Assembly (NCBI RefSeq): GCF_003944755.1
Contig: NZ_RWGU01000036.1
Span: 1-57,823, forward strand
Direction: 5' to 3'
DNA length: 57,823 nucleotides
Origin: Rhodovulum robiginosum
Lineage (GTDB): Bacteria; Pseudomonadota; Alphaproteobacteria; Rhodobacterales; Rhodobacteraceae
The stretch's first letter is position 1. Each line of letters opens with the position of its first letter. The notes beneath the pieces were generated by a model. It did not search any database. It worked only from the letters and a program-made list of their open reading frames with translations, and was not told the DNA's origin. Shown here in pieces: positions 4,148 to 39,350 of the stretch. The position numbers and the translations under genes were made by a program.

Positions 4148-5035
4148 CTATCGCAGGTCCAAAACCCGTTCCGGCGCGATCCGGCCGCGCACGAGATCGC
4201 CGAGGGCCAGCAGATTGCCCCGCAACCGTCCCACGCGGTCGACCCAGGGTTCGGGCCATAGCGCCTTTGCCAGGTTGGCCGTTACATTCCTGCGCATCAT
4301 GCGCAGCGCCCTGTCGCGCCGCATGGTCCCCTTGCCGATGAGGTAAAGCGGGTTGGCGATCTGAGAGTAGCCCAGCAAGAGCCCCGTGCCGCGCCCTGTC
4401 TTGGTGCCCAGATGCACGCCGACCAACGCCTCGGCCCGGACGATCCGGCCATGCCGCGCCAGAAGGCGGCCGAAATCGACGTCTTCAAGCCAGCCATAAA
4501 ACGGCAATCGCTCATCGAATCGCAACCCTAGCGAGATCACCGGGTCGGCGCGCAACGACATGTTGCAGCCATAGCCGTTGTAGGTGTCGGTCAGCCCGTC
4601 GCCAGCGGGCCGCGCCGCATCGGCCAGTAACTTGAGCCCGTCCTCGAAGCTGAAACCAGGGCCGTTGATGCCGTCGGCCACCACCGTGCCCGTCAGCATC
4701 ACGATATCGGGGTGTTCTTCGTACAGGCGCAGCGTCTGGCGCAGATAATCAGGCGCCATCAGGAAATCATCGTCCAAAAACAAGAGGATGTCACCCGGCT
4801 CCAGGGCGTCGAGGACGCGGTTGCGCTGGCGCGTCAGGCCCTTGGGGCCGATCACTTCCCGCACCGGAAAGGGCAACGCATCATACCCGTTCGCCGGGGC
4901 GTCCTCGGGCGCGCCCAGACTGAGTATCACAAGGTCTGGAAGGCGGTCTTGCAGCGCGATGTGAGCCAGGCAATCGGCCAAAATACGCTCACGCCCGGTC
5001 GATGCGATTGCAAAAACTAGCCTCATTTTGGACAC
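4148..5035 (-). CDS. GT2-family glycosyltransferase
   Basis: A 295-residue GT-A fold transferase. Its N terminus (R-L-V-F-A-I-A-S-T-G-R) is followed by the metal-binding triad at D88-D89-D90 in L-L-F-L-D-D-D-F-L. Further on is Y-G-W-L-E-D-V-D-F-G, the acceptor/base region typical of GT2 enzymes of polysaccharide assembly. No membrane segment is obvious, so it should act as a soluble or peripheral enzyme on a lipid-linked intermediate. The start is a GTG at 5035; an in-frame ATG three codons later is an alternative. It points toward the GT4 gene (convergent) and may be transcribed with the exoY-like gene, which lies 276 bp upstream. Confidence 0.85.
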   Translation of the reverse strand: MSKMRLVFAIASTGRERILADCLAHIALQDRLPDLVILSLGAPEDAPANGYDALPFPVREVIGPKGLTRQRNRVLDALEPGDILLFLDDDFLMAPDYLRQTLRLYEEHPDIVMLTGTVVADGINGPGFSFEDGLKLLADAARPAGDGLTDTYNGYGCNMSLRADPVISLGLRFDERLPFYGWLEDVDFGRLLARHGRIVRAEALVGVHLGTKTGRGTGLLLGYSQIANPLYLIGKGTMRRDRALRMMRRNVTANLAKALWPEPWVDRVGRLRGNLLALGDLVRGRIAPERVLDLR

Positions 5036-5311: not shown

Positions 5312-6031
5312 CTACCGTGCGCCGTCCTGCTTGAGCACGACCGACACAGTGCGCAGCACGATCTGCAGGTCTCGCAGGAACGTCCAGTTGCGGACATAGT
5401 CCACATCCATCGCCACACGCTCTTCAAAGGTGGTGTTGGAGCGTCCGCTGACCTGCCAGGCGCCTGTCACACCGGGCTTGACCGACATGTAATCCTGGAA
5501 ATTGCGGCCGTAGTAGACCGTTTCCTCCATGAGGATCGGACGCGGGCCGACGACCGACATATCGCCACGCAGCACGTTAAAGAACTGCGGCAACTCATCG
5601 AGGCTGGTCTTGCGCAGGATCTCCCCGACGCAACTGACCCGCGGGTCGTTGGTCAGCTTGCGCGACATGTTCCACTCTTGCCGCGCCACGGGATCGGTGC
5701 GAAGCAATTCCTCGAGACGCTCTTCGGCATCGCGGACCATGGTCCGGAACTTAAAGCAGCGGAACGGCCGACCGTTCCGTCCGATCCGCTCTTGCGCGAA
5801 GAACACGGGCCGTCCGTCGCTGATGATAAGCGACACCGTGATCAGAATGAAGAATGGCAGGAAAAACAATAGCGCCAGCGCAGCGAAGGCCCGGTCGAAG
5901 AGTTGCTTTTTTAACGGAACCCGGCGCGCTCGCCAGTTGTCTTGAAGTCGCAGCGCGCCTTGTGCATCACACACTCTGACGCCTGCGTCAAAATCAGATC
6001 GAAACATCATTGAACACACGTTGCTTAGCAA
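5312..6031 (-). CDS. exoY: ExoY-like undecaprenyl-phosphate sugar-phosphate transferase
   Basis: This is the likely priming enzyme of the polysaccharide: it would move a sugar 1-phosphate from a nucleotide sugar to undecaprenyl phosphate. The 239-residue length fits the short ExoY type, without the multi-span WcaJ/WbaP N-terminal domain. One membrane/re-entrant helix lies near residues 44-69. Family motifs are C-F-K-F-R-T-M-V, the T-S-L-D-E-L-P-Q-F-F-N-V-L region, G-D-M-S-V-V-G-P-R-P, and the C-terminal V-K-P-G-V-T-G-A-W-Q. The start could be the ATG at 6031 or the tandem Met codons eight and nine. A long, less G+C-rich leader (6032-6647) separates it from the next gene, so it probably has its own promoter. 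Confidence 0.9.
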   Translation of the reverse strand: MLSNVCSMMFRSDFDAGVRVCDAQGALRLQDNWRARRVPLKKQLFDRAFAALALLFFLPFFILITVSLIISDGRPVFFAQERIGRNGRPFRCFKFRTMVRDAEERLEELLRTDPVARQEWNMSRKLTNDPRVSCVGEILRKTSLDELPQFFNVLRGDMSVVGPRPILMEETVYYGRNFQDYMSVKPGVTGAWQVSGRSNTTFEERVAMDVDYVRNWTFLRDLQIVLRTVSVVLKQDGAR

Positions 6032-6647: not shown

Positions 6648-7703
6648 TCAGACAGCCGGGCCCGAGCCCTGCCAGGGAACGTCGATGCCGAACCCGGCGG
6701 CCAGCTCCCGAAGCCCCGTCGAGGTCTTGGCTTCTAGCGAAATCCCGCGGTCCCGGTTTTCAGCCATCGCATTCCAGCGTGCCTCGCCGGGAAACCGCAC
6801 GCTGCCCGCCGGGCCCGAGCACGCAACCATGTCGGCCAGCACGTCCATCCGTTCGAAGAAGCTCTCGAGCGGCATCCATCTCGAGACATCCAGCGCCACG
6901 ATGAAATGGCCGCTGTTCCCCTGCCGCTCGAAATCCTTGTACATCGAGGCCACTTGGGAGGAAATGCCGGCCCCGGTGAGGACGCCGCTCAAGACTTCGA
7001 CCATCAGGGCCAGCCCGAATCCCTTTGCACCGCTCGCCGGCAGCAACGTCCCTTTCATGGCCTCGTTGGGGTCGGTCACCGGACGACCGCGATCGTCCAC
7101 CACCAACCCTTCGGGCAGGTCGAGACCATTTCGTTGGTACGCCCGCACGGTTGACCCGGCCAATCCCGCCGTCGACATGTCGACGATCAGCGAACGGCCA
7201 TCGCGCCCCGGTGCGCCGAAGCCGAAGGGATTGGTGCCCAGAACGGGCTTGTAGCCGCCCTCCGCAGCCACCTTGGGAAAGGAGTTGCTCAGAACGAGGC
7301 TGATCATCCCCGCCTCTGCGGCGCGGTTGATGTAATAGGCGCCCGTGCCGAAGAAATTGCTGCGCTGCACTCCGACGGCGCCCACACCGGTCGCGCGCGC
7401 CAATTCCACGGCGCGGTCCGTTGCGCGCGTACCAGCCACCTGCCCGAAGCCGTGGTCTGCATCCAGCAGCGCCGCCGACGGCGAAATCTCTTGCAGGTTC
7501 ATCTGCGCGGGCGTCCGGATCAGTCCGGCCTTTACCCTGCGCAGCAGAATGGGCAGCCTCTCGACCCCGTGATTGGCGCGGCCGGCGAGATCGTTCCATA
7601 GCAGGTTATCCGAGAGCACCTCCGCCTCGGCGCCATCGACGCCAGCGGCGCTCATAAGGGCATCCACGAAGCCGCGAAGGTCGGAAACTGCAACCCGCAG
7701 CAT
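6648..7703 (-). CDS. Ldh2/YlbC-type NAD(P)-dependent 2-oxoacid/imine reductase
   Basis: A 351-residue member of the malate/L-lactate dehydrogenase (Ldh_2) family, which includes malate, ureidoglycolate, 2,3-diketogulonate and Delta1-piperideine-2-carboxylate reductases. Visible motifs are N-H-G-V-E-R-L (44-50, with the conserved His45), D-A-D-H-G-F-G-Q (81-88), L-G-T-N-P-F-G-F (155-162) and V-D-M-S-T (174-178). The second usual His in the S-N-H-F-G-type motif is Phe117 here (S-N-F-F-G), which may change substrate. It is the last gene of a four-gene operon: its ATG lies three bases after the preceding ATP-grasp stop, with GGGGAA as ribosome binding site. In this context it probably reduces or oxidises a 2-oxo acid used by the ligases; substrate unknown. 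Confidence 0.85.
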   Translation of the reverse strand: MLRVAVSDLRGFVDALMSAAGVDGAEAEVLSDNLLWNDLAGRANHGVERLPILLRRVKAGLIRTPAQMNLQEISPSAALLDADHGFGQVAGTRATDRAVELARATGVGAVGVQRSNFFGTGAYYINRAAEAGMISLVLSNSFPKVAAEGGYKPVLGTNPFGFGAPGRDGRSLIVDMSTAGLAGSTVRAYQRNGLDLPEGLVVDDRGRPVTDPNEAMKGTLLPASGAKGFGLALMVEVLSGVLTGAGISSQVASMYKDFERQGNSGHFIVALDVSRWMPLESFFERMDVLADMVACSGPAGSVRFPGEARWNAMAENRDRGISLEAKTSTGLRELAAGFGIDVPWQGSGPAV

Positions 7704-7706
7704 CCT

Positions 7707-8924
7707 TCATTTCCCCAGACGCTTGAACGCGCGCCCGAACTCTTCGCGCAACCGTACCACCGTCGGCATCGGGTCCGTCAGGCTCAGGATGGGCAAGACC
7801 TTGCGCCCTGACATGAGGCTCTTGATCCAGCCAGGGAAGCTCAACTCGCCACGCTTGTTGAGCTCTCGAAAGGCGAGGAAGTCGCGCAGCGGGTTCCACA
7901 TGCGCACGTTCTCTTCGTACCCTGAAAAAGCGGGAACGTCCTGCCCAGTCTGTCTGCGATAGATCATTTCGTCGATCGGCAAACCGCCGGAAACCACCAT
8001 GCGATGTGCATCGGTGAATCTGGGATTGACCTCGATGACCTTCAGCTTGCCGTCACGCAGATCCCGCTTGAACTCGATATTGGCCATGCCACGCCACGGC
8101 ATTGAACCGAAGAATTTGCGGCCCGCCTCGGCGGTTTCGGGCAGCCATTTCGACTGATGATAACAGGCGCCGCCCCGATTGACCGGGTAGCGGCGAATAA
8201 TGCATTTGGTGTAGTGAAAAAGAGATTTTCCATCTTCGTCGATATAGGTGTAATAGCTGGACAAAAGGCTGTCAGGGCCCGGGACCATTTCCATTACCAT
8301 TACGTCGCAATTCGCGGCCTGGGCCAATTGAACCTTTTCAACCAGCTCTTCCCAATCGCTTTCGATGATAAAGAGCTTTCGGCCGAAGACCGGAATGAAG
8401 AGATGCGAATGGATGGGCTTCACCATCACCGGGAAGGATACGTCCTCCCGGATCTCTTCCAGTTTCTCGGCGCTGTCCACATCCCAGAAATTCGGCGTGG
8501 CCACCCCGGCCGCCCGCGCCCGTACCAGCGTGGCCCGCTTGTCCAGCATCTCGCGCCGCAAGGCGGGGTCGAACCCTTCCAGGAGATAGCGTTGCGAAAG
8601 CGCGGCATGGTTCGACGTGACGAATTCGATGGAGTCATCGCAAAGGGCAAAGATCAGGCTGCCCTCCAGTTCCGGCCTCGGCCTCTCCAGCAGCAACTCT
8701 CGCCAGAAGTCTTGAATCGAGCATTCGGCGGGTGCGCGAAACTTGCCATGGCAGTGGCGCGAATCCAGCGCCAGGCAGCCCGACTTTCCGGCGGCGCTGA
8801 CAGTGATTCCGACGCGGGCGAGGTTGCGGGCCAACGCCGCGCTGTTCGCCGCACCCCCAAGTATGAGCACCGGAGTCGATGTCTCCAGTTCCTGCGAGAT
8901 TTCATTTGCGGTGGACAGCTTCAA
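7707..8924 (-). CDS. ATP-grasp ligase (carboxylate-amine ligase-like, COG3919-like)
   Basis: A 405-residue ATP-grasp enzyme. The N-terminal Rossmann-like domain carries V-L-I-L-G-G-A-A-N-S (19-28). The ATP-grasp core has D-K-R-A-T-L-V (128-134), the ATP-binding lysine in V-M-V-K-P (169), E212 in V-M-E-M-V-P-G and the Mg-binding E298/N300 in V-I-E-V-N-P-R-F. Such enzymes activate a carboxylate as acyl phosphate and transfer it to an amine. The start is a TTG at 8924 that overlaps the previous gene's TGA (TTGA), with AGGGG ten bases upstream. No ATG lies nearby and the glycine loop starts within 25 residues, so the TTG is well supported. Substrates are unknown. Confidence 0.85.
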   Translation of the reverse strand: MKLSTANEISQELETSTPVLILGGAANSAALARNLARVGITVSAAGKSGCLALDSRHCHGKFRAPAECSIQDFWRELLLERPRPELEGSLIFALCDDSIEFVTSNHAALSQRYLLEGFDPALRREMLDKRATLVRARAAGVATPNFWDVDSAEKLEEIREDVSFPVMVKPIHSHLFIPVFGRKLFIIESDWEELVEKVQLAQAANCDVMVMEMVPGPDSLLSSYYTYIDEDGKSLFHYTKCIIRRYPVNRGGACYHQSKWLPETAEAGRKFFGSMPWRGMANIEFKRDLRDGKLKVIEVNPRFTDAHRMVVSGGLPIDEMIYRRQTGQDVPAFSGYEENVRMWNPLRDFLAFRELNKRGELSFPGWIKSLMSGRKVLPILSLTDPMPTVVRLREEFGRAFKRLGK

Positions 8925-10042
8925 ACCTTCATCACCCCTTGGCGGTTTTCGAACAGGTAGTGGAGAACCCTGGTGGCGACGGGCGTTGCCCTGGATCGGT
9001 CTGCCACAAGGTAATGATGGTGGATACCCGGCCCGACATTGACCTCATGAAACTGGACGCCGTTCGCGCCAAGGGGCGCCGAGATGTCGTCGGCGATGAT
9101 GTCCAGCCCAGCGAAACGGACCCCCAGATCCGTGACCAGTCTGGCGCCGGCCGATACGATATCGGGATGCAGATCGCCGGTGACCGTGTGGTTCTCTCGG
9201 TCGGCGTTTTCATTGATCGCGTGTTTCACGACGATCGGTTTGCCGGCCGGGATAGCTGCTGCGGGCTTCAGGCCCTGCGCCGACAAATGATGCAAAGCGT
9301 CCTGGTCAATTACAAGCGGGCTCAGCGCGGTGATCGGCCGCCTCGACAGGCGATTGGTGTTTTCCGTTTTGACAAGGGCGTGGATGGTGGAATGCCCATC
9401 GCCGCAGACCGTCGGCGGATCGCGGCGGACCGCATCCAGCAATTGACCGTCGAGATACAGCAAGCGGTAGCAACTGCCCGAAAGCATCGGCTCAGCCAAA
9501 AGCTCGGCGTTGAAGCTTGCCGCGTGCAACGCCGCGCGCAACAGCTCTCCCTGAGTGCGAATGCCAGTGGTCACCCCATTCCCCCCACCGGTTCCCGTGG
9601 CAGGTTTGACCACGATCGGTCCCGGCATCCGGGTGAGGAAGTCCCGCGCGCGGCCCAGCCGGTCGAGCGAGAACACGCAATGATCCGGCACGGAATAGCC
9701 CTTGTCCGAAAGCAATCGATAGGTGACCGCCTTGTGCGCCATGACCCGCGTGGTGATCACGTCATCCAACATAAGGTCGGAGTGCGAAACAAACGTCACA
9801 AGACCATTCAGGGAAATGCGCTTGAGCCCGCCAATGTCGCTGTAGTCTGCGCCCAGCTCTTGCGCGGCGTCCCGCCAGAGGGTCTCGTAGAATTCGTTGC
9901 GCAGCCGGCCGAACCGGCGCCGCTTCAGGACGCTGCGAAGATCGGCGAGTTTGAGTGCGCGACGTGCCATCCAGTCGAGGCGCTGACGCATTCGTCCGTC
10001 AAGGGAAACAGGGCCGCGCTTCGGCGCGGCGGCATCACTCAT
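8921..10042 (-). CDS. CphA/RimK-like ATP-grasp ligase
   Basis: A 373-residue ATP-grasp protein whose core resembles the ATP-grasp domain of cyanophycin synthetase. It has H-K-A-V-T-Y-R-L-L-S-D-K-G (103-115), V-V-K-P-A-T-G-T-G-G-G-N-G-V (144-157), H-T-V-T-G-D-L-H-P (285-293), A-G-L-D-I-I-A-D-D-I-S (311-321) and the metal ligands in E333-V-N335. It lacks the CphA N-terminal region and the Mur-ligase half, so it is a stand-alone amide or peptide ligase. The ATG at 10042 overlaps the RraA-like stop by eight bases; the frame runs open further upstream inside that gene but without protein-like sequence. It is followed by a coupled second ATP-grasp. Expected reaction: ATP-dependent joining of an acid to an amine. 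Confidence 0.85.
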   Translation of the reverse strand: MSDAAAPKRGPVSLDGRMRQRLDWMARRALKLADLRSVLKRRRFGRLRNEFYETLWRDAAQELGADYSDIGGLKRISLNGLVTFVSHSDLMLDDVITTRVMAHKAVTYRLLSDKGYSVPDHCVFSLDRLGRARDFLTRMPGPIVVKPATGTGGGNGVTTGIRTQGELLRAALHAASFNAELLAEPMLSGSCYRLLYLDGQLLDAVRRDPPTVCGDGHSTIHALVKTENTNRLSRRPITALSPLVIDQDALHHLSAQGLKPAAAIPAGKPIVVKHAINENADRENHTVTGDLHPDIVSAGARLVTDLGVRFAGLDIIADDISAPLGANGVQFHEVNVGPGIHHHYLVADRSRATPVATRVLHYLFENRQGVMKV

Positions 10043-10778
10043 CGAAGAGACACCCGTCCGCCGCCAGTTGCTTGTCAACCCACTCGTTCGAGAACACGCC
10101 ACGCTTCACGCTGTCAACGTAGGCCTCGAGTTGTTCGCGGTTGAGTTCGAGCCGCTCCAGCACATTCTCTGCCGCCCATTGCGGAACGACCACGACGCCG
10201 CTCGGGTCCGCCACAAGGATGTCGCCAGCCTGTACGACGATGCCGCCGGCGCTGATCGGATAGTTGATCTCGCCCGGACCGCGGTGAAGCGGGCCGAAGG
10301 GCGTGACGCCCTTGGCAAAGACCGGCAATCCGCATTCGGTGACGCCCGGCAGATCGCGGATCAACCCGTCGATGATGAAACCGGCAATGCCTCGGTGCCG
10401 CGCCTTGTTGGCCACAAGGTCACCGATCACCGCGGCACTCAGGCTCTGGCTGGCGTCGACGACAATAACATCGCCGGGTTCGGCGAGATCGAGCGCCTTG
10501 TGCACCATCAGGTTATCGCCTGGAAAGCACTTCACCGTCAGGGCCGGACCCCACAGCGGTTTGTCGTTCGCGAGATTATGGATCTCCCGCCCCATCGTGT
10601 ACATGCGATTCATCATGTCCGAAATATCCGGGGACTCGAACTGTCGCAGCCGGTCGACCAGCGACGGATTCGGCCGCTTGAAAGTGCGGCGCACCATGAA
10701 GCCGGGTCCGGGTCTCATTTCCGCGGATTTCGGCTTCTCTTTGCCGCGACGGCCTTCGCTCGTCGAAAGCTTTTCCAT
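10035..10778 (-). CDS. RraA-fold protein, 4-hydroxy-4-methyl-2-oxoglutarate aldolase-like
   Basis: A 247-residue member of the RraA/HMG aldolase superfamily. It carries the G-D-x20-R-D signature that binds the metal and substrate: G119-D120 and R141-D142, with S-A-A-V-I-G-D leading in and I-D-G-L-I-R-D closing. Members either cleave 4-hydroxy-2-oxo acids or decarboxylate oxaloacetate; RraA itself binds RNase E. The intact catalytic residues favour an enzyme. The first ~30 residues are basic and look like an added tail, so Met21 or Met28 could be used instead, but the ATG at 10778 has a good GGGGGG ribosome binding site. First gene of the operon; it may supply or consume a 2-oxo acid for the reductase at the operon's end. 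Confidence 0.85.
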   Translation of the reverse strand: MEKLSTSEGRRGKEKPKSAEMRPGPGFMVRRTFKRPNPSLVDRLRQFESPDISDMMNRMYTMGREIHNLANDKPLWGPALTVKCFPGDNLMVHKALDLAEPGDVIVVDASQSLSAAVIGDLVANKARHRGIAGFIIDGLIRDLPGVTECGLPVFAKGVTPFGPLHRGPGEINYPISAGGIVVQAGDILVADPSGVVVVPQWAAENVLERLELNREQLEAYVDSVKRGVFSNEWVDKQLAADGCLFDE

Positions 10779-11172: not shown

Positions 11173-11595
11173 TCATTCCGGCCGGATTCGTTTGCGCCCC
11201 AATAGGCGGAGCGTCATGTTCCGGCCGGCGCGCAGCACCGGATACAGCACCGCTGCACGCGTCCTTGAACGAAACACCCATCCGTTGAAGCGGCTGATCG
11301 GCCCTGTCGCGGCACTGAGCAGCGCCAAGGCATGAATGCTGTCCTGGCCATGATAGAACTGGCCGGACAATTTGAGCACCATGCCCCCGTCGAGATCGAG
11401 CCCCTTGGCCATGACCTCGTCGAATTCCGGGCCGCCCTCGCGGGCATTTATCAGCCGCAGGGGACCGACGGCGTCGCGGATGCGCACCAGCGCCACATAC
11501 CGGCTGCAGAACGGGCAGTCGCCGTCGTATAGCAGCCAGTTATCCTCTCCGGCCGGCACCGCCTTGGCCGGATCGGGCATGTCTAGTGCAGACAA
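11173..11595 (-). CDS. DCC-family (DUF393) thiol-disulfide oxidoreductase-like protein
   Basis: A 140-residue protein with the family-defining motif Y-D-G-D-C-P-F-C (residues 23-30), giving a thioredoxin-like C-x-x-C pair preceded by Asp. The length is typical. Its start region overlaps the end of the HTTM gene by 13 bases, so the two are translationally coupled. DCC proteins are often found beside or fused to HTTM (vitamin K-dependent carboxylase-like) membrane proteins, where they may serve as the thiol redox partner; that role is inferred. The start could also be the internal Met at residue 6. Confidence 0.9.
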   Translation of the reverse strand: MSALDMPDPAKAVPAGEDNWLLYDGDCPFCSRYVALVRIRDAVGPLRLINAREGGPEFDEVMAKGLDLDGGMVLKLSGQFYHGQDSIHALALLSAATGPISRFNGWVFRSRTRAAVLYPVLRAGRNMTLRLLGRKRIRPE

Positions 11596-13061
11596 TAGGA
11601 CACCTCCCCTTTGAACACCGGGCGGAAATACCCGACCTTCTCAAGCAGCAGCGGCAGAGGGACATCCAGATTGGCATCGGCATTGTCCTCAGCGCCGCGC
11701 TTGAAGGTGCGCATCTCGCCATTGCGGAGATATGTAATCTCCAGGTCGGGGTCTTCCACTTCGTTGACGGCGCGACGGAGCTCGAAATAGGTGACGTAGA
11801 CATCGAACTCCTGGCCGACAAAGCCGTAGCGCGCCGGATGGGTCTTCAGCTTCAGGATCTCTTCGTTGTTGGAATCGACGACTTCGACCAGGTCGTCCTG
11901 GAAGTGGAACAGGGGCACAGCCGGCAACAGCAGGTGATTGTTCACCCCGCCTTCCGTGCGCATGTTGCTGTACATCGCAACGTTGTTTTCCGTCTTGAAG
12001 CCGATATAGGGCGACGCGGAGTTGAGCACGACAAGCGCAAAAAAGACCCACAGCACGCCGGGCTTGGCAGTCCACATCTCGGTCACGCCGGTGCCTGCAA
12101 ACAGGCCGTGACGCCAATGCTCACGAACGACCGCGAAGAGAATCGCGGCCGATGCCACGACCGTCCAGACCAGCCAGACAAGGCTTGGCTTCAACGGCAC
12201 GGCGCTTGCCAGCAACAGCCCGCTGCAGGCCGCAAAGGCCAACGGCGCAGGCGTCGAGGGCAGCAATTTCTCACGCAGCCTGTCGAGATATCCCGCACCG
12301 CTGCGAACGACCTCCACGAGGGACGGCATGGCCACAAGCATGTAGAGCGAGATCATGAAGGACGAGAACGGCCAGTGTCCCATCAGGCCCAGCAGGATGT
12401 GGAACGGCACGCCGAAGTAGAAAGCGACCAGCCGGGTCCGGCGAAACGCCAGCATGACCGGCAGCAGCGCTTCTGCGACCATGAAGAACCAGAAGAAGAA
12501 TTCGACGCTGGCCAGTGACAGGAATGGTGATATGTACGGCCGCTCTGCGTGGGCTTCTTCAATCATGCCGTACAGGCAACTGATACTGAGGTCGAAGAAC
12601 CCTGCATTCAGCTTCGATATGATGATCGAAAAGTACAAGAACGCGAAGATGGCGCCACATACCGGTGCGAATTTCTGGAACCAGGCATCGGCGATTTGTC
12701 GGTCGAACGGTTCTTTCGAACGCCAAAAGTGAAATGCGGTAAGACCGAGCGCTGCGAGCATGCATACCGACAAGAAGGTGTCGATAAAGATGTGGTTCAC
12801 GACGAACGGCCATTCCGACACGAAATATGCGATGCTCGAGACGATCATCGCCGCGAACAGCCAAATCCGGCCCGGAAACATGAACACGGCAATCGCCAGA
12901 GCCGCGAAAATATAGCCGAGGATCAGCCCGTCGACAGCCCAGTGGTAATAGAACACGAGCTGCACCATGCTCTGCGCGGCCCATGCGTGCGAAAAAATCG
13001 TTAAAGAATCAATCTTCGAGATGCCGGTGCGATTGTCCGGTAGAGTTCTTTGTTCATTCAT
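11583..13061 (-). CDS. HTTM-domain (vitamin K-dependent gamma-carboxylase-like) membrane protein
   Basis: A 492-residue integral membrane protein with about nine or ten hydrophobic segments. The HTTM-like core contains S-K-L-N-A-G-F-F and a later segment with A-E-A-L-L-P-V-M-L-A-F-R-R-T-R followed by P-F-H-I-L-L-G-L, as in the family. A soluble C-terminal domain of ~130 residues follows the last span. The start is the ATG at 13061; the frame extends to 13166 but that part is not protein-like. Base composition is unusual for the window: the 60 bases from 12601 hold only 28 G+C. This suggests acquisition from elsewhere. It is coupled to the DCC gene. Substrate unknown; HTTM proteins are thought to modify proteins or small molecules at the membrane. 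Confidence 0.8.
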   Translation of the reverse strand: MNEQRTLPDNRTGISKIDSLTIFSHAWAAQSMVQLVFYYHWAVDGLILGYIFAALAIAVFMFPGRIWLFAAMIVSSIAYFVSEWPFVVNHIFIDTFLSVCMLAALGLTAFHFWRSKEPFDRQIADAWFQKFAPVCGAIFAFLYFSIIISKLNAGFFDLSISCLYGMIEEAHAERPYISPFLSLASVEFFFWFFMVAEALLPVMLAFRRTRLVAFYFGVPFHILLGLMGHWPFSSFMISLYMLVAMPSLVEVVRSGAGYLDRLREKLLPSTPAPLAFAACSGLLLASAVPLKPSLVWLVWTVVASAAILFAVVREHWRHGLFAGTGVTEMWTAKPGVLWVFFALVVLNSASPYIGFKTENNVAMYSNMRTEGGVNNHLLLPAVPLFHFQDDLVEVVDSNNEEILKLKTHPARYGFVGQEFDVYVTYFELRRAVNEVEDPDLEITYLRNGEMRTFKRGAEDNADANLDVPLPLLLEKVGYFRPVFKGEVSYCLH

Positions 13062-13517
13062 GCTTTGTTCGCTCACAATAAATAAGAGCGCGAGCCGCTC
13101 ACACAACCATACAACACGCGTCAATTGTCCCTCGGCACATTCCAAGTGCCTAGGAAAAGCGTACATTACAGGTCTGGTAACGTCAATCGGATGCGGCAGC
13201 GGGCAGCCGCTCGGCCTGGAAGCCGCGCCGACAAGGTGGCTCTATCCAGAGATGAAACGCCGGTTGGCGTGCCCTCGGCCGCTCCTTGTGATCGAACCAC
13301 TTGAGAAAACGTAAATATCTTTTTGGAACAATGTCTTGGAAAGCGGCAACGGGTCCGTTTTTTGCCCGCAAGCCCACCTTGGGCGCCCTCTCCCGGATCG
13401 CCCGATGAAAGCCGGGCACAACCATTTGTTGCAATGGGTGCCGTGGCCTTGGTGGAATCGCGGGCGGACCCAATTCAATACCAACGCCGCCCAGGGATTG
13501 CACCGCCGATGTGTTAG
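13062..13517. other. 456-bp intergenic region upstream of HTTM gene
   Basis: No convincing gene. It separates the HTTM/DCC pair from the YdcF-like gene, both on the minus strand. A+T-rich patches occur at 13076-13090 and 13310-13335, so a promoter for the HTTM gene and the 3' end of the YdcF transcript probably lie here. Longer minus-strand frames (13183-13713) overlap the YdcF-like gene out of phase and were rejected. Confidence 0.4.
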
Positions 13518-24160: not shown

Positions 24161-24853
24161 CTACCCCAAGGGCGCCACCGGCCGCCGGCCTTCGCACCAG
24201 CGGAGCCGCACCGGGCGGCGGTGGTTTTCCACCGCCACCGCACCGAAAAGCCCAGGCCCCAGCGTCAGCGGCAAGAGCGCCCAGTCCTCGGCCGCGCCGC
24301 CGTCTATCCGCCTGACCGCCGCGGTCTCACCCAGGGTCACGTCGAAGCTGTCGAGCGGCATCGACAGCCCCGGCCCGCAGGCCTTGACCACAGCCTCTTT
24401 TCGGGTCCAGCAGCGAAAAAAGCCCGTCGCCCAGTCGCCCGGCGCAAAGCGGGAAAGTTCGGCCCTTTCGTCGGGCGAGAAAAAGCGGTCGGCAACGGCG
24501 GGATCGACCTGTCGGACGGCCTCGATATCGATGCCCAGCGCCACCTGCGCCTGCGTCACCGCAAGCGCGGCCCACCCCCCGGCATGGCTGAGGTTGAAGG
24601 CCGGCCCGGCCTCAAGCCCCGGCTTGCCCTGGGGATTGTAATGAAACCTCAGCGCCTCGGGCGCCCCGCCCACATAGCCCGCCAGGATCTCGCGCATGCG
24701 CCCGCGCGCGGCGCTGAAACGCGATCCGTGGCGCGGATGGACGAAACGGGCCGCGCGGGCCTGTTCCTCGGGCGCCAGACGCTTGGCCAGCCGGGCCGCC
24801 AGATCGGGCGGCGGGTCGAGCGCCCAGAGCCAGAGGTCGATTTCGACGGGCAT
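24161..24853 (-). CDS. Sfp-type 4'-phosphopantetheinyl transferase
   Basis: A 230-residue enzyme that moves the phosphopantetheine arm of CoA onto a serine of carrier proteins. Signature residues are F-N-L-S-H (87-90 area), the Mg-binding G-I-D-I-E (107-111) and F-R-C-W-T-R-K-E-A-V-V-K-A (146-158, with K152, E153 and K157). The length is typical of the Sfp/Gsp group. It starts 12 bases after the GT4 stop and is cotranscribed with it, although its chemistry has no obvious place in polysaccharide assembly. No NRPS or PKS is present in the window. The acyl carrier protein at 56720-56968 is one possible client. Confidence 0.92.
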   Translation of the reverse strand: MPVEIDLWLWALDPPPDLAARLAKRLAPEEQARAARFVHPRHGSRFSAARGRMREILAGYVGGAPEALRFHYNPQGKPGLEAGPAFNLSHAGGWAALAVTQAQVALGIDIEAVRQVDPAVADRFFSPDERAELSRFAPGDWATGFFRCWTRKEAVVKACGPGLSMPLDSFDVTLGETAAVRRIDGGAAEDWALLPLTLGPGLFGAVAVENHRRPVRLRWCEGRRPVAPLG

Positions 24854-32205: not shown

Positions 32206-32946
32206 TCAATCCCGCGCGTAGCGTGCCACGAAGTTGCGCAGGATGCGCTCGGGCCAGGTCACGTCTGCCGCGCGGCACATCGCGATCAGGGCATCCGCCG
32301 TGTCGGGCGGGAAATAACCGCGGTGGCGGTAGATGCGGATGCGCGTCTCGAACCCGGCGCTGTCGGCCTCGGGATGGAACTGGGTGGCATAGACGTTCGC
32401 CCCGTGGCGGATCATCTGGTAGGGGCAGGCGCGCGAGGCGACCAGGTGCGCGCAGCCCGCGGGCACCTCCTGCGCGGCCTCCTTGTGCCCGACGAAAGCG
32501 GTAAAGCGCTCGGGAAATCCGTCGAGCAGCGGGTCGGCGCGGCCCGCCTCGGTCAACGTGCAGTCCGAGGTGCCCACCGGCTCGCCATAGCGGCGCTTCG
32601 AGACCTCGGCGCCCAGGTGATGCGTCAGCACGCCGATGCCGTAGCAGCACCCCAGAAACGGAAAGTCGCGCCCGGTGATGGCCGGCATCAGCCCCAGCGC
32701 GGCGGTCTCGATCTGCGCTTCCACCGCGCTTTTCGCCTCGGGCGGGTCCGACACGCAGCCCGGGCCGCCGCCGACGATAACGCCGGAATAGGCGTCGAGG
32801 TCGAGCTCGGCCGGGATCGGCGCCTGGTCCAGCCGTATGCGGTGGGCGTCGCCCTCGTCGAGCCCGCCCTTTCGCAGGATCGCGGCGAACTCGTCGTCCG
32901 AAGCCTCGGTCTCGGGGCGAAGCTGGAGGATCAGAAACGGCTTCAT
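32206..32946 (-). CDS. Class I glutamine amidotransferase-like protein
   Basis: A 246-residue stand-alone GATase1 domain. The nucleophile is C101 in F-L-G-C-C-Y-G-I-G and the dyad is H191/E193 in A-T-Q-F-H-P-E, so the catalytic triad is intact. There is no synthetase domain, so it may hydrolyse gamma-glutamyl compounds (PuuD-like) or supply ammonia to a partner. The ATG at 32946 gives the conserved M-K-P-F-L-I-L-Q-L start; the frame is open to 33036 but the extra residues are not protein-like. It follows the M20 gene by 47 bp on the same strand and ends at a strong terminator, so the three hydrolase genes likely form one operon. Confidence 0.88.
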   Translation of the reverse strand: MKPFLILQLRPETEASDDEFAAILRKGGLDEGDAHRIRLDQAPIPAELDLDAYSGVIVGGGPGCVSDPPEAKSAVEAQIETAALGLMPAITGRDFPFLGCCYGIGVLTHHLGAEVSKRRYGEPVGTSDCTLTEAGRADPLLDGFPERFTAFVGHKEAAQEVPAGCAHLVASRACPYQMIRHGANVYATQFHPEADSAGFETRIRIYRHRGYFPPDTADALIAMCRAADVTWPERILRNFVARYARD

Positions 32947-32993
32947 CGCGCCCTCATGCCCCGGCCCCGCGGCCCCGTCAATGCGGCGCCGGA

Positions 32994-34160
32994 TCAGGCC
33001 GCCGGCATCCGGGTCTCGACCATCTCGGCGAACCACGAACAGCCGAAGGGAATCGCCTCGTCGTCGAAATTGTATTCCGGGTGGTGCACCGACGCGGTGT
33101 CGCCGTTGCCCACGAAGATATAGGCGCCGGGGCGTTCGTTCAGCATGAAGCTGAAATCCTCGCCGCCCATCAGCGGCGGGGTGTCGGGGTTGACCTGCCC
33201 CGAGATCTTTTCGGCCACCTGAATGGCAAACTCGGTCTGGTCGTCGGCGTTTTCGGTCACCGGGTAGCCGCGGTGATAGATGACATCCGCCCTCGCGCCG
33301 AAGGCCACCGCGGTGTTCTCTACCACCGCCTTCAGCCGCGTCTCGGCAAAGCTGCGCACATCGTCCTCCAGCGTGCGCACCGTGCCGCGCAGCAGCACGG
33401 TCTGGGGGATGACGTTATGCGCCTCGCTCTCGGTGCGGAAGGTGCAGACCGAGACGACTACCTGTTTCAGCGGGTCCACGTTGCGCGAGGCGATCGACTG
33501 CAGCGCGACCACGATATGGCTGGCCACCAGCGTGGTGTCGATGCATTCATGGGGCTTGGCCGCGTGGCCGCCCTTGCCGGTGACGGTGATCTCGAACTCG
33601 TCGGCGGCGGCCATGATCGGCCCGGGCCGGATCGCGAAACTGCCCACTGGCAGGCCGGGGCTGTTGTGCATGCCGTAGACCTCGTCGATGCCGAAACGGT
33701 CCATCATGCCGTCCTCGCACATCGCGCGGCCGCCCGCGCCACCCTCTTCGGCGGGCTGGAAGATCACCACCGCCGTGCCGTCGAAATTACGGGTCTCGGC
33801 CAGGTATTTGGCCGCGCCCAGCAGCATCGCGGTATGCCCGTCATGGCCGCAGGCATGCATCTTGCCGTGGTTTTTCGAGGCATAATCCAGCCCGGTCGCC
33901 TCGATGATCGGCAGTGCGTCCATGTCGGCGCGCAGACCGATCGCCCGGCCCTTGCTGTCGGACTTGCCCCTGATGACACCGACCACGCCGGAACGTCCGA
34001 TGCCCTCGACCACCTCGTCGCAGCCGAACGCCCGCAGCCGGTCGGCCACCAGCGCCGAGGTGCGCGGCAGGTCGTACAGCAGCTCGGGATGTTCGTGCAT
34101 GTCCCGCCGCCAGGCGGCGATTTCGTCCTGCAGCTCGGCAAAGCGGTTCTTGACGGGCAT
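32994..34160 (-). CDS. M20-family amidohydrolase (hippurate/N-acyl amino acid hydrolase-like)
   Basis: A 388-residue metallohydrolase of the AbgB/HipO group. Metal ligands are visible in L-R-A-D-M-D-A-L-P (76-84), H-A-C-G-H-D-G-H-T (102-110) and Q-P-A-E-E-G-G (134-140); M-G-G-E-D-F-S near the C terminus is typical. It releases amino acids from N-acyl or similar amides in the cytoplasm. It lies six bases after the ArgE-like gene and 47 bp before the amidotransferase. A divergent peptide-type ABC importer starts ~1.4 kb away, so an imported N-acylated amino acid, peptide or opine is the likely substrate class. Confidence 0.92.
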   Translation of the reverse strand: MPVKNRFAELQDEIAAWRRDMHEHPELLYDLPRTSALVADRLRAFGCDEVVEGIGRSGVVGVIRGKSDSKGRAIGLRADMDALPIIEATGLDYASKNHGKMHACGHDGHTAMLLGAAKYLAETRNFDGTAVVIFQPAEEGGAGGRAMCEDGMMDRFGIDEVYGMHNSPGLPVGSFAIRPGPIMAAADEFEITVTGKGGHAAKPHECIDTTLVASHIVVALQSIASRNVDPLKQVVVSVCTFRTESEAHNVIPQTVLLRGTVRTLEDDVRSFAETRLKAVVENTAVAFGARADVIYHRGYPVTENADDQTEFAIQVAEKISGQVNPDTPPLMGGEDFSFMLNERPGAYIFVGNGDTASVHHPEYNFDDEAIPFGCSWFAEMVETRMPAA

Positions 34161-34166
34161 CGGCTG

Positions 34167-35333
34167 TCACTCCTTGAGATGGTCCAGCAGGCGGGCCATG
34201 AAGGCCTCGCCGGCGCGGAACTGGTCGAGCGTGATATATTCATCGGGCTGGTGCGCCTGGGCGATATCGCCTGGGCCGCAGATCACGGTGGAATAGCCGC
34301 CGCCCTGGAACTGCCCGGCCTCGGTGGCGTAGGCGACCGCGTGCGTGGCGTTGTCGCCGGTCAGCCGCCGTGTCAGCGCCTCGGCCGCGCCCTCCTGTTC
34401 GGGCAACAGCGGCGGGACGAAAAAGATATCTTCGACCTCGATGCGCGCCTCGGGGCGAACGGCCTGCATCGCGGCCTCGATGCGGCGGACCTCGTCGAGA
34501 TAGGTGTCGCGCCAGTCCTCCATCGGCTCGCTCGGCACGCAGCGGATATCGAGTGGAAAGCTGCAGTCGGCGGCGGTGATGTTATGCGCGGTGCCGCCGG
34601 CGATCTGGCCCACATGGAGCGTGGTCCAGGGCGGGTCGAACAGCGCGTCCGCGCCGCTCGCGGTCTTGGCGCGGTTGGCCTCGTTCTGGTCGTTGATCCA
34701 CATCACCAACCGCGCGGCCTCCATCACCGCCGACACGCCCGTGTGCAGGATCGATGAATGCACCTCGACCCCCTTCAGGCGGGTGCGAAAGCCGATATTG
34801 CCCTTCTGCCCGGTGACCACCTGCATCATCGAAGGCTCGCCCACGATGGCGATCTCGGCCATTGGAAAGCCCGCCTCGCGCATATGGGCGATCATCGGCG
34901 GCGCGCCGACGCAGCCGATTTCCTCGTCGCGGGACAGCGCCAGTTGCAGCGGGCGCGCCACGCCCAGCGCCTGCGCGCGCACGAGCGCCCAGATCGCCAG
35001 CGCATCGAACCCTTTCATGTCGCAGGTGCCCCGGCCATAGAGCCGCCCGTCGCGCTCGGTCACCTCGAACGGGTCAGAGGCCCAATTCTGACCGTCGACC
35101 GGCACCACGTCGCTATGGCCCGACAACAGCACGCCGCCGGGCGCTTTCGGTCCCACGTGGGCGTAAAGGCTGGCCTTGTCGCCGGCATCGTTGGGCACAC
35201 GCGTCACTGCGATGCCATGCTCGGCCAGGTACCCCTCGACCCAATCGACCAGCGCGAGGTTGCTATCGCGGCTGACCGTGGGGAAAGACACAAGCTTTTC
35301 AACAAGATGACGCGGCGTCAGCTCAGCGCCCAT
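34167..35333 (-). CDS. argE: Acetylornithine deacetylase-like M20 peptidase
   Basis: A 388-residue ArgE/DapE-type enzyme. Motifs: L-S-G-H-S-D-V-V-P-V-D-G (69-80, with the first metal His and Asp), G-R-G-T-C-D-M-K-G-F (98-107), D-E-E-I-G-C-V-G (136-143) and the dimerisation H-S-S region. ArgE removes the acetyl group from N-acetylornithine, but placement beside a second M20 enzyme and a peptide importer makes a catabolic deacylase equally likely. ATG 35333 is the first gene of a minus-strand operon divergent from the ABC importer (234 bp between). Confidence 0.85.
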   Translation of the reverse strand: MGAELTPRHLVEKLVSFPTVSRDSNLALVDWVEGYLAEHGIAVTRVPNDAGDKASLYAHVGPKAPGGVLLSGHSDVVPVDGQNWASDPFEVTERDGRLYGRGTCDMKGFDALAIWALVRAQALGVARPLQLALSRDEEIGCVGAPPMIAHMREAGFPMAEIAIVGEPSMMQVVTGQKGNIGFRTRLKGVEVHSSILHTGVSAVMEAARLVMWINDQNEANRAKTASGADALFDPPWTTLHVGQIAGGTAHNITAADCSFPLDIRCVPSEPMEDWRDTYLDEVRRIEAAMQAVRPEARIEVEDIFFVPPLLPEQEGAAEALTRRLTGDNATHAVAYATEAGQFQGGGYSTVICGPGDIAQAHQPDEYITLDQFRAGEAFMARLLDHLKE

Positions 35334-35567
35334 CGGAGATATCCCGTTCTAGCATGGGCTGAAGGTGATGCGGCGGGCAGCAGAGGTCAAGCCGCAATGC
35401 CCAAGCTATCAACGCCGCGCCGACCGGTCCGGCCGAGCTGAGGCGATGCGCGCAGGAAAAGGTTGCCGGGTGGGTTTTTCGTGATAACAATTTTTTTAAT
35501 CCCTGCGGGCCGGACGGCTTTGACGCAGGTAAAAAAGGCCGAAAGAATTCTGCTTCAGGGAGTTTCC
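35334..35567. promoter_or_regulatory. Divergent promoter region between hydrolase operon and ABC importer
   Basis: A 234-bp gap. The importer side has A/T-rich patches at 35475-35500 and 35529-35535, with TTGCCG (35463-35468) and TAACAA (35485-35490) spaced by 16 bases as a weak promoter candidate. CAGGGAG precedes the importer ATG. Divergent layout suggests joint control of uptake and hydrolysis; no regulator gene is nearby. Confidence 0.4.
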
Positions 35568-36572
35568 ATGCCCGATGGGGCGGCGCCCGTCCTCGATGTG
35601 AGGGACCTGCAGACCGTCTTCCGCACCCGCACGGGCGAGGTGCATGCGGTCAATTCCGTCAGTTTTCATCTCCAACCGGGCGAGCTTTTGGGCGTCGTTG
35701 GCGAGAGCGGCTCGGGCAAGTCGGTGACGATGATGTCGCTGATCGGGCTGTTGCCCTCGCCGCCGGCCGAGGTGCGCGCAGGCCGCGTGGAATTCGGCGG
35801 ACGCGACCTGTTGAAGGTGCGCGAGAAAGAGTTGCGCGCACTGCGCGGGGCGCGCATCGGCTTTGTCTTCCAGGACCCGATGACCAGCCTCAACCCGGTC
35901 TTTACCGTGGGCTACCAGCTACGCGAGCCGTTACGAAAGCACATGGGCATGGACAAGTCCGCCGCCCACAAACGCGCAGTCGAGTTGATGGACCTGGTGG
36001 GCATCCCCGACGCCGACCGGCGGCTGGAGGATTACCCGCACCAGTTTTCCGGCGGCATGCGCCAGCGGGTGATGATCGCGATCGCACTGGCCTGCGATCC
36101 GGAGGTGCTGATCGCGGATGAGCCCACGACGGCGCTGGATGTCACCATCCAGGCGCAAATCCTCGAACTGATGAAGGAGTTGCGACAGCGCCTCGGCATG
36201 GCGGTGATCTGGATCACGCACGATCTGGGGGTGATCGCGGGCATCGCCGACCGGGTGATCGTGATGTATGGCGGCCAGGTGGTGGAACAGGCCCCGGTGA
36301 AGGAGCTCTTCGCCAATCCGCAGCACCCCTATACCCGCGCGCTGTTGCAGACCGTGCCGCACCTGGAAGGCGCGCGCGCACCCCGGCTGAAGGTGATCGA
36401 GGGCCAGCCGCCCGTGCTGTCGGCGCCGCCGCGCGCCTGCCCCTTCCGTGCCCGCTGCAGCCATGCCTTCGACCGTTGCGCACGGGAAAACCCGGCCCGC
36501 GTGCCCGTTGGCCCAGGTCACGACGCCGCCTGTTTCTGGGATGCCGAGCGAGAGGCCCCGCGCGATGTTTGA
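35568..36572 (+). CDS. Peptide/opine ABC transporter ATP-binding protein (OppD/DppD type)
   Basis: A 334-residue ABC ATPase. Walker A is G-E-S-G-S-G-K-S (45-52); the signature is F-S-G-G-M-R-Q-R-V; Walker B leads into A-D-E-P-T-T-A-L-D. The C-terminal oligopeptide-transport extension includes [14 protein letters not shown], the four-cysteine iron-sulfur-like motif of this subfamily. The ATG at 35568 has CAGGGAG upstream; the frame opens earlier at 35463 but without conserved residues. First gene of a five-gene importer. Overlaps the second ATPase gene by eight bases. Confidence 0.93.
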
Positions 36573-37626
36573 TGCCCCCCGCCGCAAGCTGGTCGAGGTC
36601 AACGGCCTTAAGATGTATTTCCCGATCCATGGCGGCATCCTGCGCCGCCGGTTGGGCGAGGTGCGCGCCGTCGACGATGTTAGCTTTGACATCTACGAGG
36701 GCGAGACGCTGGGGCTGGTTGGCGAATCCGGCTGCGGAAAATCGACCTGCGGCCGGGCGGTGCTCAGGCTTTACGACATCACCGAGGGTTCGATCCGCAT
36801 CGACGGCGAAGAGATAGGCGATGCCGGGTACAAGCTCTTGCGCGCCAGGCGGCCCAAGATGCAGATGGTGTTCCAGGACCCGCAGGCCAGCCTCAACCCG
36901 CGCATGACCGTCGCCCGCATCATCGGCGAGCCGCTGGACGAGCACACGGCCCTGTCGAAACCCGAAAAGCTGGACCGCATCTACGAGTTGATGGACGCGG
37001 TGGGGCTGAACCGCAACTTTGCCAACCGCTACCCGCACGAGTTTTCCGGCGGCCAGCGCCAGCGGATCGGCATCGCCCGCGCGCTGGCGCTGAACCCCAA
37101 ATTCATCGTCTGCGACGAGCCCATCGCCGCGCTCGACGTCTCGATCCAGGCGCAGGTGGTCAACCTGCTGGAGGATCTGCAGTCGAAATTCGGCCTGACC
37201 TACCTGTTCATCAGCCACGATCTGTCGATGGTGCGCCATATCGCGACGCGCGTGGCGGTGATGTACCTGGGCAAGGTGGTGGAGCTTGCGCCGCGCGACG
37301 CGCTTTATGGCGCGCCGATGCATCCCTACACCCAGGCGCTCTTGTCGGCCGTGCCCGAGCCCGACCCCAATATCGAGACCCGCCGCGAGCACATCATCCT
37401 CAAGGGCGACGTTCCCTCGCCCGCCAACCCGCCCAAGGGCTGCAATTTCAGCACCCGCTGCCCGCAGGTGATGGATATCTGCCGCCAGATCGACCCCGAA
37501 TTCCGCGAGGTGGTCCCGGGCCACTATGCCGCCTGCCACCTGCACGACATTCAACAAACCCGGACCGCCGGCGAACCGGCGGCGCAAGAGGTAAGTCCGA
37601 GCGACCAACAAGGAGAGGTAACATGA
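36565..37626 (+). CDS. Peptide/opine ABC transporter ATP-binding protein (OppF/DppF type)
   Basis: A 353-residue ABC ATPase partnering the previous one. Walker A is G-E-S-G-C-G-K-S; the signature is [18 protein letters not shown] is Walker B plus D-loop. The C-terminal extension carries C-N-F-S-T-R-C-P and a later C-R-Q and C-H, as in OppF. The tail is ~20 residues longer than the last conserved Cys and reads into the binding-protein gene, overlapping its ATG by ATGA. An upstream in-frame ATG at 36541 is an alternative start; I chose 36565 for its overlap coupling with the first ATPase. Confidence 0.93.
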
Positions 37627-39320
37627 AACTGAGACACGCGCTTCTGGGCGCCGCCGCGACGCTGGCCTTCGCGCCCGCCGCGATGGCCGAGCGGGGCAGC
37701 GACGGCCAGGTGAACATCATCTACTGGCAGGCGCCCTCGACGATGAATCCCTATCTCTCGGGCGGCACCAAGGACCTGGAGGCGGCGAGCCTCGTGCTAG
37801 AGCCGCTTGCCCGCTACGACCAGGACGGCAACATGGTGCCGTGGCTGGCCGAAACGATCCCGACCGTCGAAAACGGCGGGGTGACCGAAGACCTGACCTC
37901 GATCACCTGGAAACTGAAGCCGGGGCTGAAATGGGCCGATGGCTCGCCAGTCACCTCGGCCGACGTGAAATTTTCGTGGGAATACTGCACCGCCGAGGGC
38001 GGCGGCTGCGCCCAGTCGGAGAAATACAACGACGTCGTTGATGTCGAGACGCCCGACGAGCTGACCGTCATCGTCAGGTTCGGCGTGGCCAAGCCGTTCC
38101 CCTACGGCCCCTTCGTGGGTGCGCAGGCGCCGGTCATCCAGGCCGCGCAATTCGCCGAGTGCCTGGGCGCCAAGGCGCCCGAATGCACCGACGCCAACTT
38201 CAAACCGCAGGGCACCGGCCCCTTCACCGTGGTCGATTTCCGGCCCAATGACGTGATCCAGCTGGAGGCCAACCCCAACTACCGCGACCCCGAAAAGCCC
38301 GCTTTCGCCTCTGTCCTGTTCAAGGGCGGCGGCGACGCGACGGCGGCCGGCCGTTCGGTGCTGGAAACCAGCGAGTTCGACTATGCGTGGAACCTGCAAC
38401 TGGCGCCCGATGTTCTGGCCAACATGGTGTCGGCCGGCAATGGCAAGATCGTGTCGGGCTTCGGCACGCTGGTCGAGCGGATCCTGATCAACATGACCGA
38501 TCCCTCGCCCGAACTGGGCGACCGCCGCTCGACCGTCGATACACCGCACCCCTTCCTGACCGACATGGCGGTGCGCCAGGCGCTGTCGATGGCCATCGAC
38601 CGCGAGCTTCTGGTGGAAATCGGGTATGGCGACGCCGGCCGGCCCACGTGCAACGTGCTGCCCGCGCCGGAAATCTACAAGTCCACCGCCAACGACGGCT
38701 GCCTGGTGCAGGATATCGAGCGCGCCAAGGCACTGCTGGACGAGGCCGGCTGGGTGCCCGGCCCCGACGGCGTGCGCGCCAAGGACGGCGTCCGGCTGAG
38801 CCTGCTCTACCAGACCTCGACCAACGCCGTGCGCCAGGACTTTCAGGCCCTGATCAAGCAGTGGTGGGAGGAAATCGGGGTCGAGACCGAGCTGCGCAAC
38901 ATCGACGCCAGCGTGTTCTTCGGCGGCGATCCGGGCAGCCCGGACACGTTCCAGAAGTTCTACGCCGACGTGGAAATGTACGCCAACAACTTCGACGGAA
39001 CCGACCCGGAATCCTACATGGCCAACTGGCTGTGCAAGGAAATCCCCAGCCCCGAGACCCAGTGGCAGGGCAACAACATCAACCGCTACTGCTCTGAGGC
39101 CTATGACGCGCTGGTGGCCGAGATGGCCGTGACCGGCGCTCTGGAAGAGCGTGCCGAGCTGGCCAAGGCGATGAACGACATGCTGATGCAGGAATACGTG
39201 ATCCTGCCTCTGGTCGACCGCGGCCGCGTGTCGGCGCATTCCAACACGCTGGGCGGTGTCGTGCTGAACACCTGGGACAGCGAGCTTTGGAACGTGGCCG
39301 ACTGGTACCGCATCGAGTGA
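37623..39320 (+). CDS. Periplasmic peptide/opine-binding protein (SBP family 5)
   Basis: A 565-residue binding protein with a signal peptide (cleavage after A-M-A, about residue 22). The mature start, [15 protein letters not shown], and the [14 protein letters not shown] motif (about 96-109) are hallmarks of family 5 (OppA/DppA) proteins. Four or more cysteines in the mature part could form disulfides. An unusually strong AAGGAGAGGT ribosome binding site sits inside the end of the preceding gene, in line with the need for excess binding protein. A stable hairpin follows its stop codon. Confidence 0.93.
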
Positions 39321-39326
39321 ACCTTC

Positions 39327-39350
39327 GGGGCGCCCCGACCGGGGCGCCCC
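39327..39350 (+). other. Intercistronic stem-loop after the binding-protein gene
   Basis: Two copies of the self-complementary GGGGCGCCCC at 39327-39336 and 39341-39350 can form a ten-base-pair stem with a four-base loop (GACC). There is no T tract, so it is not a simple terminator. Such hairpins after binding-protein genes usually protect the upstream mRNA from 3' exonucleases and lower expression of the permeases. Confidence 0.7.

Follow-up and report, generated by a model that had tools for sequence, protein, structure and literature searches.

In Campylobacter jejuni, glucuronate of the capsule is amidated by a TupA-like ATP-grasp domain of the protein Cj1438; going by the available part of the paper, this is the nearest literature precedent for a capsule locus that encodes an ATP-grasp amidoligase (PMC11800379). 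Here we describe a four-gene cassette of Rhodovulum robiginosum, on contig NZ_RWGU01000036.1 (57,823 nucleotides, the whole of which is called the window below), in which two ATP-grasp ligases are combined with an RraA-fold and an Ldh2-fold protein within a polysaccharide cluster. The likeness to Cj1438, drawn from its description in the available part of that paper, would lie in the formation of an amide with a constituent of the polysaccharide by an ATP-grasp enzyme encoded among capsule genes. In contrast, Cj1438 acts on the carboxylate of glucuronate and is a domain of a glycosyltransferase protein, and no RraA, Ldh2 or second ATP-grasp protein is named alongside it in that part of the paper (PMC11800379). 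Known enzyme families are thus found in an apparently undescribed combination: no description of this gene set was found in the openly licensed full-text literature, although one may exist elsewhere, and neither ATP-grasp with polysaccharide and RraA nor ATP-grasp with Ldh2 was found as a combination in that literature. We give roughly even chances to the reading that the cassette is an accessory, probably exchangeable module of surface-polysaccharide loci, which builds an acid other than a sugar and attaches it through amide bonds. This reading is based on the same gene order in three genomes, near-identical gene junctions, purifying selection, and genes for a WbaP-type sugar transferase and a GT4 glycosyltransferase near the cassette genes in all four loci found with the AG2 clade. 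Further support comes from the glycosyltransferase genes beside five of six distant AG2 relatives, from the aldolase residues kept by RraA and from the Cj1438 precedent.

The four open reading frames (ORFs) all lie on the minus strand, in the order RraA, AG1, AG2, Ldh2. The first gene (10035..10778) encodes an RraA-fold class II pyruvate-aldolase-like protein of 247 aa (PF03737, 5e-46). It is followed by ATP-grasp ligase 1 (AG1; 8921..10042; 373 aa from its likely start MSDAA; NCBIfam cyanophycin synthetase, 1.7e-41), ATP-grasp ligase 2 (AG2; 7707..8924; 405 aa with a TTG start, carboxylate-amine-ligase-like; weak PRK12767/VanA profile matches) and an Ldh2-fold NAD(P)H-dependent reductase-like protein (6648..7703; 351 aa; PF02615, 2e-99) that carries Phe at the position of His116 of AllD. 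The longer ORF listed for AG1 extends to 10102, but its start is probably at 10042 (MSDAA...), because the orthologues have a start codon and MTD... at the same place. With this start, RraA and AG1 overlap by eight bases (ATGAGTGA), AG1 and AG2 overlap by four, and a gap of three bases separates AG2 from Ldh2, in agreement with a preliminary description of four genes in one direction with overlaps or gaps of 8 bases or less. No transporter or export gene lies within the cassette.

The same four genes are contiguous, and in the same order, in Actibacterium sp. MT2.3-13A (locus L097) and in Rhodobacteraceae bacterium CCMM004 (L099). The RraA, AG1, AG2 and Ldh2 proteins of the former are 84, 78, 85 and 76% identical to those of the window, and those of the latter 65, about 46, 58 and 59%. 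The junctions are an overlap of 8, an overlap of 4 and a gap of 3 in Actibacterium, and overlaps of 8, 4 and 4 in CCMM004. Between the window and Actibacterium the ratios of nonsynonymous to synonymous substitution rates (dN/dS) are 0.11 for RraA, 0.19 for AG1, 0.10 for AG2 and 0.20 for Ldh2, indicating purifying selection. The earlier proposal that these genes form a functional unit is therefore upheld by the conserved order and by dN/dS of 0.10–0.20, and a chance neighbour group is ruled out by the same gene order in three genomes. In trees, the cassette RraA (four of 30 rows) and the cassette Ldh2 (three of 42 rows) each form a clade of their own with 100/100 support and the same branching; the placement of these clades within their families was not used, because of a warning of long branches.

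A fourth locus, in Shimia abyssi (L098), has only the RraA-AG2 pair of the cassette, and Ldh2 and AG1 were not found in the 60 kb around that pair. With the AG2 clade defined by an AG2 identity of 46% or more, these four loci, the window included, are the members found. The preliminary description had taken rare co-occurrence in relatives as a sign of chance grouping. The cassette is indeed rare, but in the loci found to carry the AG2 clade, the AG2 gene adjoins RraA in four of four, and three of these (window included) have all four genes in an unbroken row.

The low counts of the AG2 clade and of AG1 across genomes establish that the cassette is accessory and rare. At an E-value limit of 1e-38, RraA has matches in 17 of 292 genomes of the order, its own included; all matches outside the window are 37–43% identical except the one in Shimia abyssi (59%), which adjoins the AG2 orthologue (46%), with Wzx and WbaP next. 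AG1 has matches in 41 of these 292 genomes, its own included, and those outside the window are partial and at best 34% identical. The AG2 profile was found in one of 16 genomes of the window's genus, in one of 25 of Shimia's genus and in two of 235 of an order sample, the second of the two being a distant relative in genome G218 and the Shimia abyssi genome evidently lying outside the sample. In a class sample, the single AG2 protein matched two of 385 genomes, the second (G635) with 29% identity. Scanning the genome_contigs collection with a pair of AG2 proteins, as two exact peptide patterns and not exhaustively, gave four loci, of which three are orthologous (Actibacterium, Shimia and CCMM004); the fourth, in a Prevotella metagenome-assembled genome (L100), is 24% identical over 141 residues and was set aside. 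The viral_contigs collection gave no match with query A2. Single-protein pattern scans of both collections with AG1 gave zero matches, but the scan is insensitive, having missed the AG1 of Actibacterium (78%) and of CCMM004 (46%).

The polysaccharide cluster around the cassette in the window contains genes for WbaP, a GT2 glycosyltransferase, a DegT aminotransferase, further glycosyltransferases and Wzz/tyrosine kinase. Downstream of the cassette, on the minus strand, are the WbaP-type undecaprenyl-phosphate sugar transferase (5312..6031; PF02397, 8e-66), with homologues near the cassette genes in Actibacterium, Shimia and CCMM004, and the GT2 glycosyltransferase (4148..5035; PF00535, 2e-6), with homologues in Actibacterium and CCMM004 but not in the Shimia locus. 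Homologues of the WbaP-type transferase and of a GT4 glycosyltransferase are near the cassette genes in four of the four AG2-clade loci, which supports the link to polysaccharide clusters made in the preliminary description. In the three loci outside the window, WbaP and GT4a homologues are within 10 kb of the cassette genes, and the order of the cluster differs. An AT3-SGNH acyltransferase gene is convergent to Ldh2 in Actibacterium and CCMM004. The Shimia locus also has Wzx and a pyruvyltransferase, and just upstream of its RraA an aminotransferase gene overlaps a PF13480 GNAT gene. From this gene order, we suggest that the aminotransferase could treat the 2-oxo group by transamination, replacing the Ldh2 route.

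Between the window and Actibacterium, the nearby WbaP, GT2 and GT4a proteins are 62, 56 and 43% identical. The cassette proteins (76–85%) are more alike than these three, with GT4b (80%) as the exception among the neighbours. This difference fits, without proving, an exchange of the cassette between polysaccharide clusters.

The best Protein Data Bank (PDB) match of RraA is a distant one, to the 4-hydroxy-4-methyl-2-oxoglutarate/4-carboxy-4-hydroxy-2-oxoadipate (HMG/CHA) aldolase 3noj (7.5e-27, 97 bits over 180 residues). D102, R123, D124, N71 and H75 of 3noj, numbered by counting on the alignment, align with D120, R141, D142, N89 and H93 of the window RraA; in the motif D102-x20-R123-D124, D102 and D124 are the defining, metal-binding residues. 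T145 and K147 of 3noj are not kept. R141, D142, N89 and H93 are present in all 30 distinct RraA sequences aligned, and position 120 is Asp in the four cassette-type proteins and one other, Glu in 23 and Gly in two. In the available part of PMC5065237, R123, N71 and H75 are named as residues of the Pseudomonas putida HMG/CHA aldolase, and most homologues are said to carry one of two metal-binding/catalysis motifs and thus to be likely class II pyruvate aldolases. The window RraA resembles the HMG/CHA aldolase in keeping the equivalents of all five residues, but no aromatic-degradation genes were found among the neighbouring window genes scanned with Pfam. It scores 123.2 bits against NCBIfam ligK_PcmE, below the cut-off of 304.5, and is therefore not filed as a CHA aldolase; among NCBIfam models, PRK06201, an unnamed subfamily, fits best, with 229.3 bits, slightly short of its cut-off of 231. 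Regulation of RNase E was rejected as the main role of this protein, as the aldolase residues are present and NCBIfam RraA_entero gives 42 bits against a cut-off of 241. From its residues, RraA is a probable class II pyruvate aldolase, and the reaction proposed for it below is predicted from them.

In NCBIfam, residues 115–387 of the longer AG1 ORF match cyanophycin synthetase in its ATP-grasp part (1.7e-41), and AG1 has PDB matches to 7ta5 (3e-25) and 7lg5 (6e-22). The full-length cyanophycin synthetase models are matched over one part only, with 139 and 142 bits, and their cut-offs of 850 and 877 are not reached. AG1 has its core in common with the ATP-grasp part of cyanophycin synthetase and N-acetylglutaminylglutamine synthetase (best partial matches in other genomes 34% over approximately 270 residues), but, unlike cyanophycin synthetase, whose second part is Mur-ligase-like, it is a stand-alone protein of 373 aa without a second part. 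For AG2, NCBIfam gives weak matches to CPSase-like and D-Ala-D-Lac ligase models (4e-7 to 1e-6), a profile search gives VanA at 8e-9, and the ATP-grasp family PF02222 reaches 19.6 bits against a cut-off of 27, whereas the Shimia abyssi orthologue passes PF02786 (20.7 bits, cut-off 19.8). The structure models are poor (mean pLDDT 43 for AG1 and 50 for AG2). The Foldseek list for the low-confidence AG2 model, headed by ATP-grasp enzymes at a TM score of about 0.33, was therefore taken only as 'ATP-grasp', its first row, the L-amino acid ligase 3vot, being a hint.

Distant relatives of AG2 are matched in 74 plasmid records, and among the 20 listed, six loci were opened. Glycosyltransferase genes stand beside the ATP-grasp gene in five of the six, namely those of Pacificitalea, Cytobacillus, Azospirillum, Priestia and Bradyrhizobium. 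On the Cytobacillus (L046, 3780–8014) and Priestia (L048, 3815–8009) plasmids the order is PIG-L deacetylase, GT4, AG2-like ATP-grasp and kinase/phosphotransferase. By analogy, this order could fit the acylation of a freed sugar amine; it resembles the logic of mycothiol synthesis, in which an amino sugar is transferred, its amine is freed and an acid is ligated to it. As a separate observation, the distant AG2 relative of G218 (contig C12; L135, 9421–13452) is part of a 937-aa ORF with a long uncharacterised C-terminal part, and is followed by a second AG2-like ATP-grasp protein (22% over 231 residues); a gene for a polysaccharide flippase is nearby.

Ldh2 passes PF02615 with 333 bits (cut-off 38.8), and its score against the L-sulfolactate dehydrogenase model NF040650, 225.5 bits, is below the cut-off of 500. 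According to the available part of PMC3527362, His116 is the proposed base of AllD, the H116A and R48A variants are inactive, Ser43 and Tyr52 hold His44 and His116, both His residues are called invariant, and the equivalent of His44 is reported as the acid in DpkA. The Ldh2 proteins of the window, Actibacterium and CCMM004 all have Phe in place of His116 (Phe117 in each), Asn in place of Ser43 and Leu in place of Tyr52, and keep His44, Arg48 and the Thr, Pro and Lys positions of the cofactor site. The statement of the preliminary description that all four genes have their key catalytic motifs is thus not borne out for Ldh2. Among 39 other Ldh2 sequences, position 116 is His in 28, Asn in 11 and Phe in none; these come from loci L044–L130 and had to reach a BLASTP E of 1e-15 or lower and to cover at least 75% of the query. 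Identical sequences, and the window's own copy (L111), entered the count once, and the sample leans to strong matches (the best 30 loci at most per search). Consequently, His116 is not invariant family-wide and is also lost outside the cassette; what sets the cassette apart is Phe at this position. Since the His44 equivalent is reported as the acid in DpkA (PMC3527362, available part), Ldh2 may work more like this imine reductase than like a hydroxy-acid dehydrogenase.

The strongest Ldh2 match outside the window in the 292 genomes, in G058, belongs to a different conserved Ldh2/ATP-grasp set, present in two Rhodobacterales genomes (L090, 7665–15869, G058:C13; L133, 11339–3135, G225:C25). This set encodes a 296-aa protein without Pfam match, an Ldh2 with Asn at 116, an ATP-grasp protein of L-amino-acid-ligase type, a Lyase_1/ADSL_C protein, a PF04199 cyclase and an 829-aa protein without Pfam match. 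Its proteins, Ldh2 excluded from this figure, are 60–86% identical between the two genomes.

As a module of polysaccharide loci, the cassette might work as follows. RraA would form a 4-hydroxy-2-oxo acid by aldol condensation of pyruvate and an oxo acid, the reaction suggested by its residues. AG2 and AG1, which group with ATP-grasp enzymes (AG2 weakly so by sequence), would convert carboxylates of putative substrates into acyl phosphates and use these to make amide bonds; at least one such bond would probably be to the amine of a sugar or amino acid. The Ldh2 protein would reduce the remaining 2-oxo or cyclic imine group, and the product would decorate the polysaccharide made by the neighbouring genes, as the four loci suggest. 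A more specific version, which we put forward tentatively and consider on the whole unlikely, is an undescribed decoration in which a pyruvate-aldol acid built by RraA is joined by the two ATP-grasp ligases and finished by the His116-less Ldh2 as an imine reductase (acting, e.g., on a cyclic imino acid), the cassette being swapped between loci. Decorations of the cell surface are important in phage contact, in adhesion and for the properties of the polymer. If true, the proposal extends by one the known routes to non-sugar substituents of bacterial polysaccharides. RraA-fold and Ldh2-fold proteins, frequent members of catabolic operons, would then have a role in biosynthesis, and Ldh2 proteins that lack the catalytic His would form a defined subgroup.

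Several observations weigh against this proposal. AG2 is placed only weakly in the ATP-grasp superfamily by sequence, and its distant relative in Acetoanaerobium, the sixth of those opened, stands beside a MurE-like ligase and a racemase (names read from translations), with no glycosyltransferase among the ORFs read at that locus. The source of the amine is inconstant, the DegT aminotransferase of the window having no match in the loci of approximately 21 kb of Actibacterium, Shimia and CCMM004. In CCMM004, an AraC-type regulator gene adjoins RraA directly upstream and a peptide-type ATP-binding cassette (ABC) transporter is found nearby, further upstream, and both are compatible with a free small molecule. 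That the cassette makes such a molecule, peptide-like or a hydroxy-acid conjugate, and stands at the edge of a polysaccharide cluster by chance is possible but rather unlikely. Two consecutive ATP-grasp ligases are known from pathways to small conjugates, and two other Rhodobacterales genomes carry the distinct Ldh2/ATP-grasp set described above, which includes a lyase and a cyclase; yet all four AG2-clade loci found lie in polysaccharide clusters or next to them, no export gene is present in the cassette, and in Shimia the RraA-AG2 pair persists alone beside Wzx and WbaP.

It also counts against the proposal that the adjacent RraA and Ldh2 genes examined in other genomes sit in catabolic-looking operons. 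Among the best plasmid matches, RraA is directly followed by Ldh2 and then by an iron-containing alcohol dehydrogenase (Fe-ADH) and an aldehyde dehydrogenase (ALDH) in Paracoccus versutus pTAV1, Aminobacter, Azospirillum and Mesobacillus; in Sinorhizobium, tricarboxylate-type transporter genes lie in the approximately 3 kb that separate RraA from Ldh2. The two families thus appear to act together in catabolic-looking operons as well, and the cassette would have two ligases inserted between them. These operons raise the alternative that the cassette serves to break down or salvage some compound, with RraA cleaving a 4-hydroxy-2-oxo acid supplied by Ldh2 and the ligases processing the products, which we hold to be very improbable. 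The proteins of the four Fe-ADH/ALDH operons are 42–46% (RraA) and 33–37% (Ldh2) identical to those of the window. Unlike the cassette, these operons, whose catabolic role is read from gene content, have no ATP-grasp gene, encode dehydrogenases and regulators (three of the four also TRAP transporters), and keep His116, which the cassette Ldh2 lacks. Neither Fe-ADH nor ALDH genes were found by Pfam scan among the ten window proteins between 4148 and 15069, nor was an uptake gene among these neighbours. Moreover, the cassette RraA and Ldh2 form their own clades on long stems, and ATP-spending ligases do not fit degradation. A further doubt concerns Ldh2 itself, which may not be a dehydrogenase at all, because His116 is absent and the H116A variant of AllD is inactive (PMC3527362, available part). 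That Ldh2, and perhaps RraA, have another role, such as binding or different chemistry on the same fold, next to ordinary amidation by AG1 and AG2, is improbable: the replacement of Ser43, Tyr52 and His116 in all three cassette Ldh2 proteins speaks for it, but the kept His44, Arg48 and cofactor-site positions and a dN/dS of 0.20 to Actibacterium argue that Ldh2 is still under selection, and the aldolase residues of RraA are intact.

Other features of the window were also recorded. A 4'-phosphopantetheinyl transferase gene (24161–24853) lies inside the polysaccharide cluster, and a motif scan of the window for short ORFs resembling acyl carrier proteins as its partners found none. Between the cassette and DUF218 (11173–13166), a DCC1-like protein is encoded beside a 527-aa membrane-type protein without Pfam match, HTTM-like by reading of its sequence; neither has a match in the Actibacterium, Shimia and CCMM004 loci. 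Beyond the polysaccharide cluster, the region 32206–42633 contains genes for a GATase, two M20 peptidases, an oligopeptide ABC transporter and a Sulf_transp protein.

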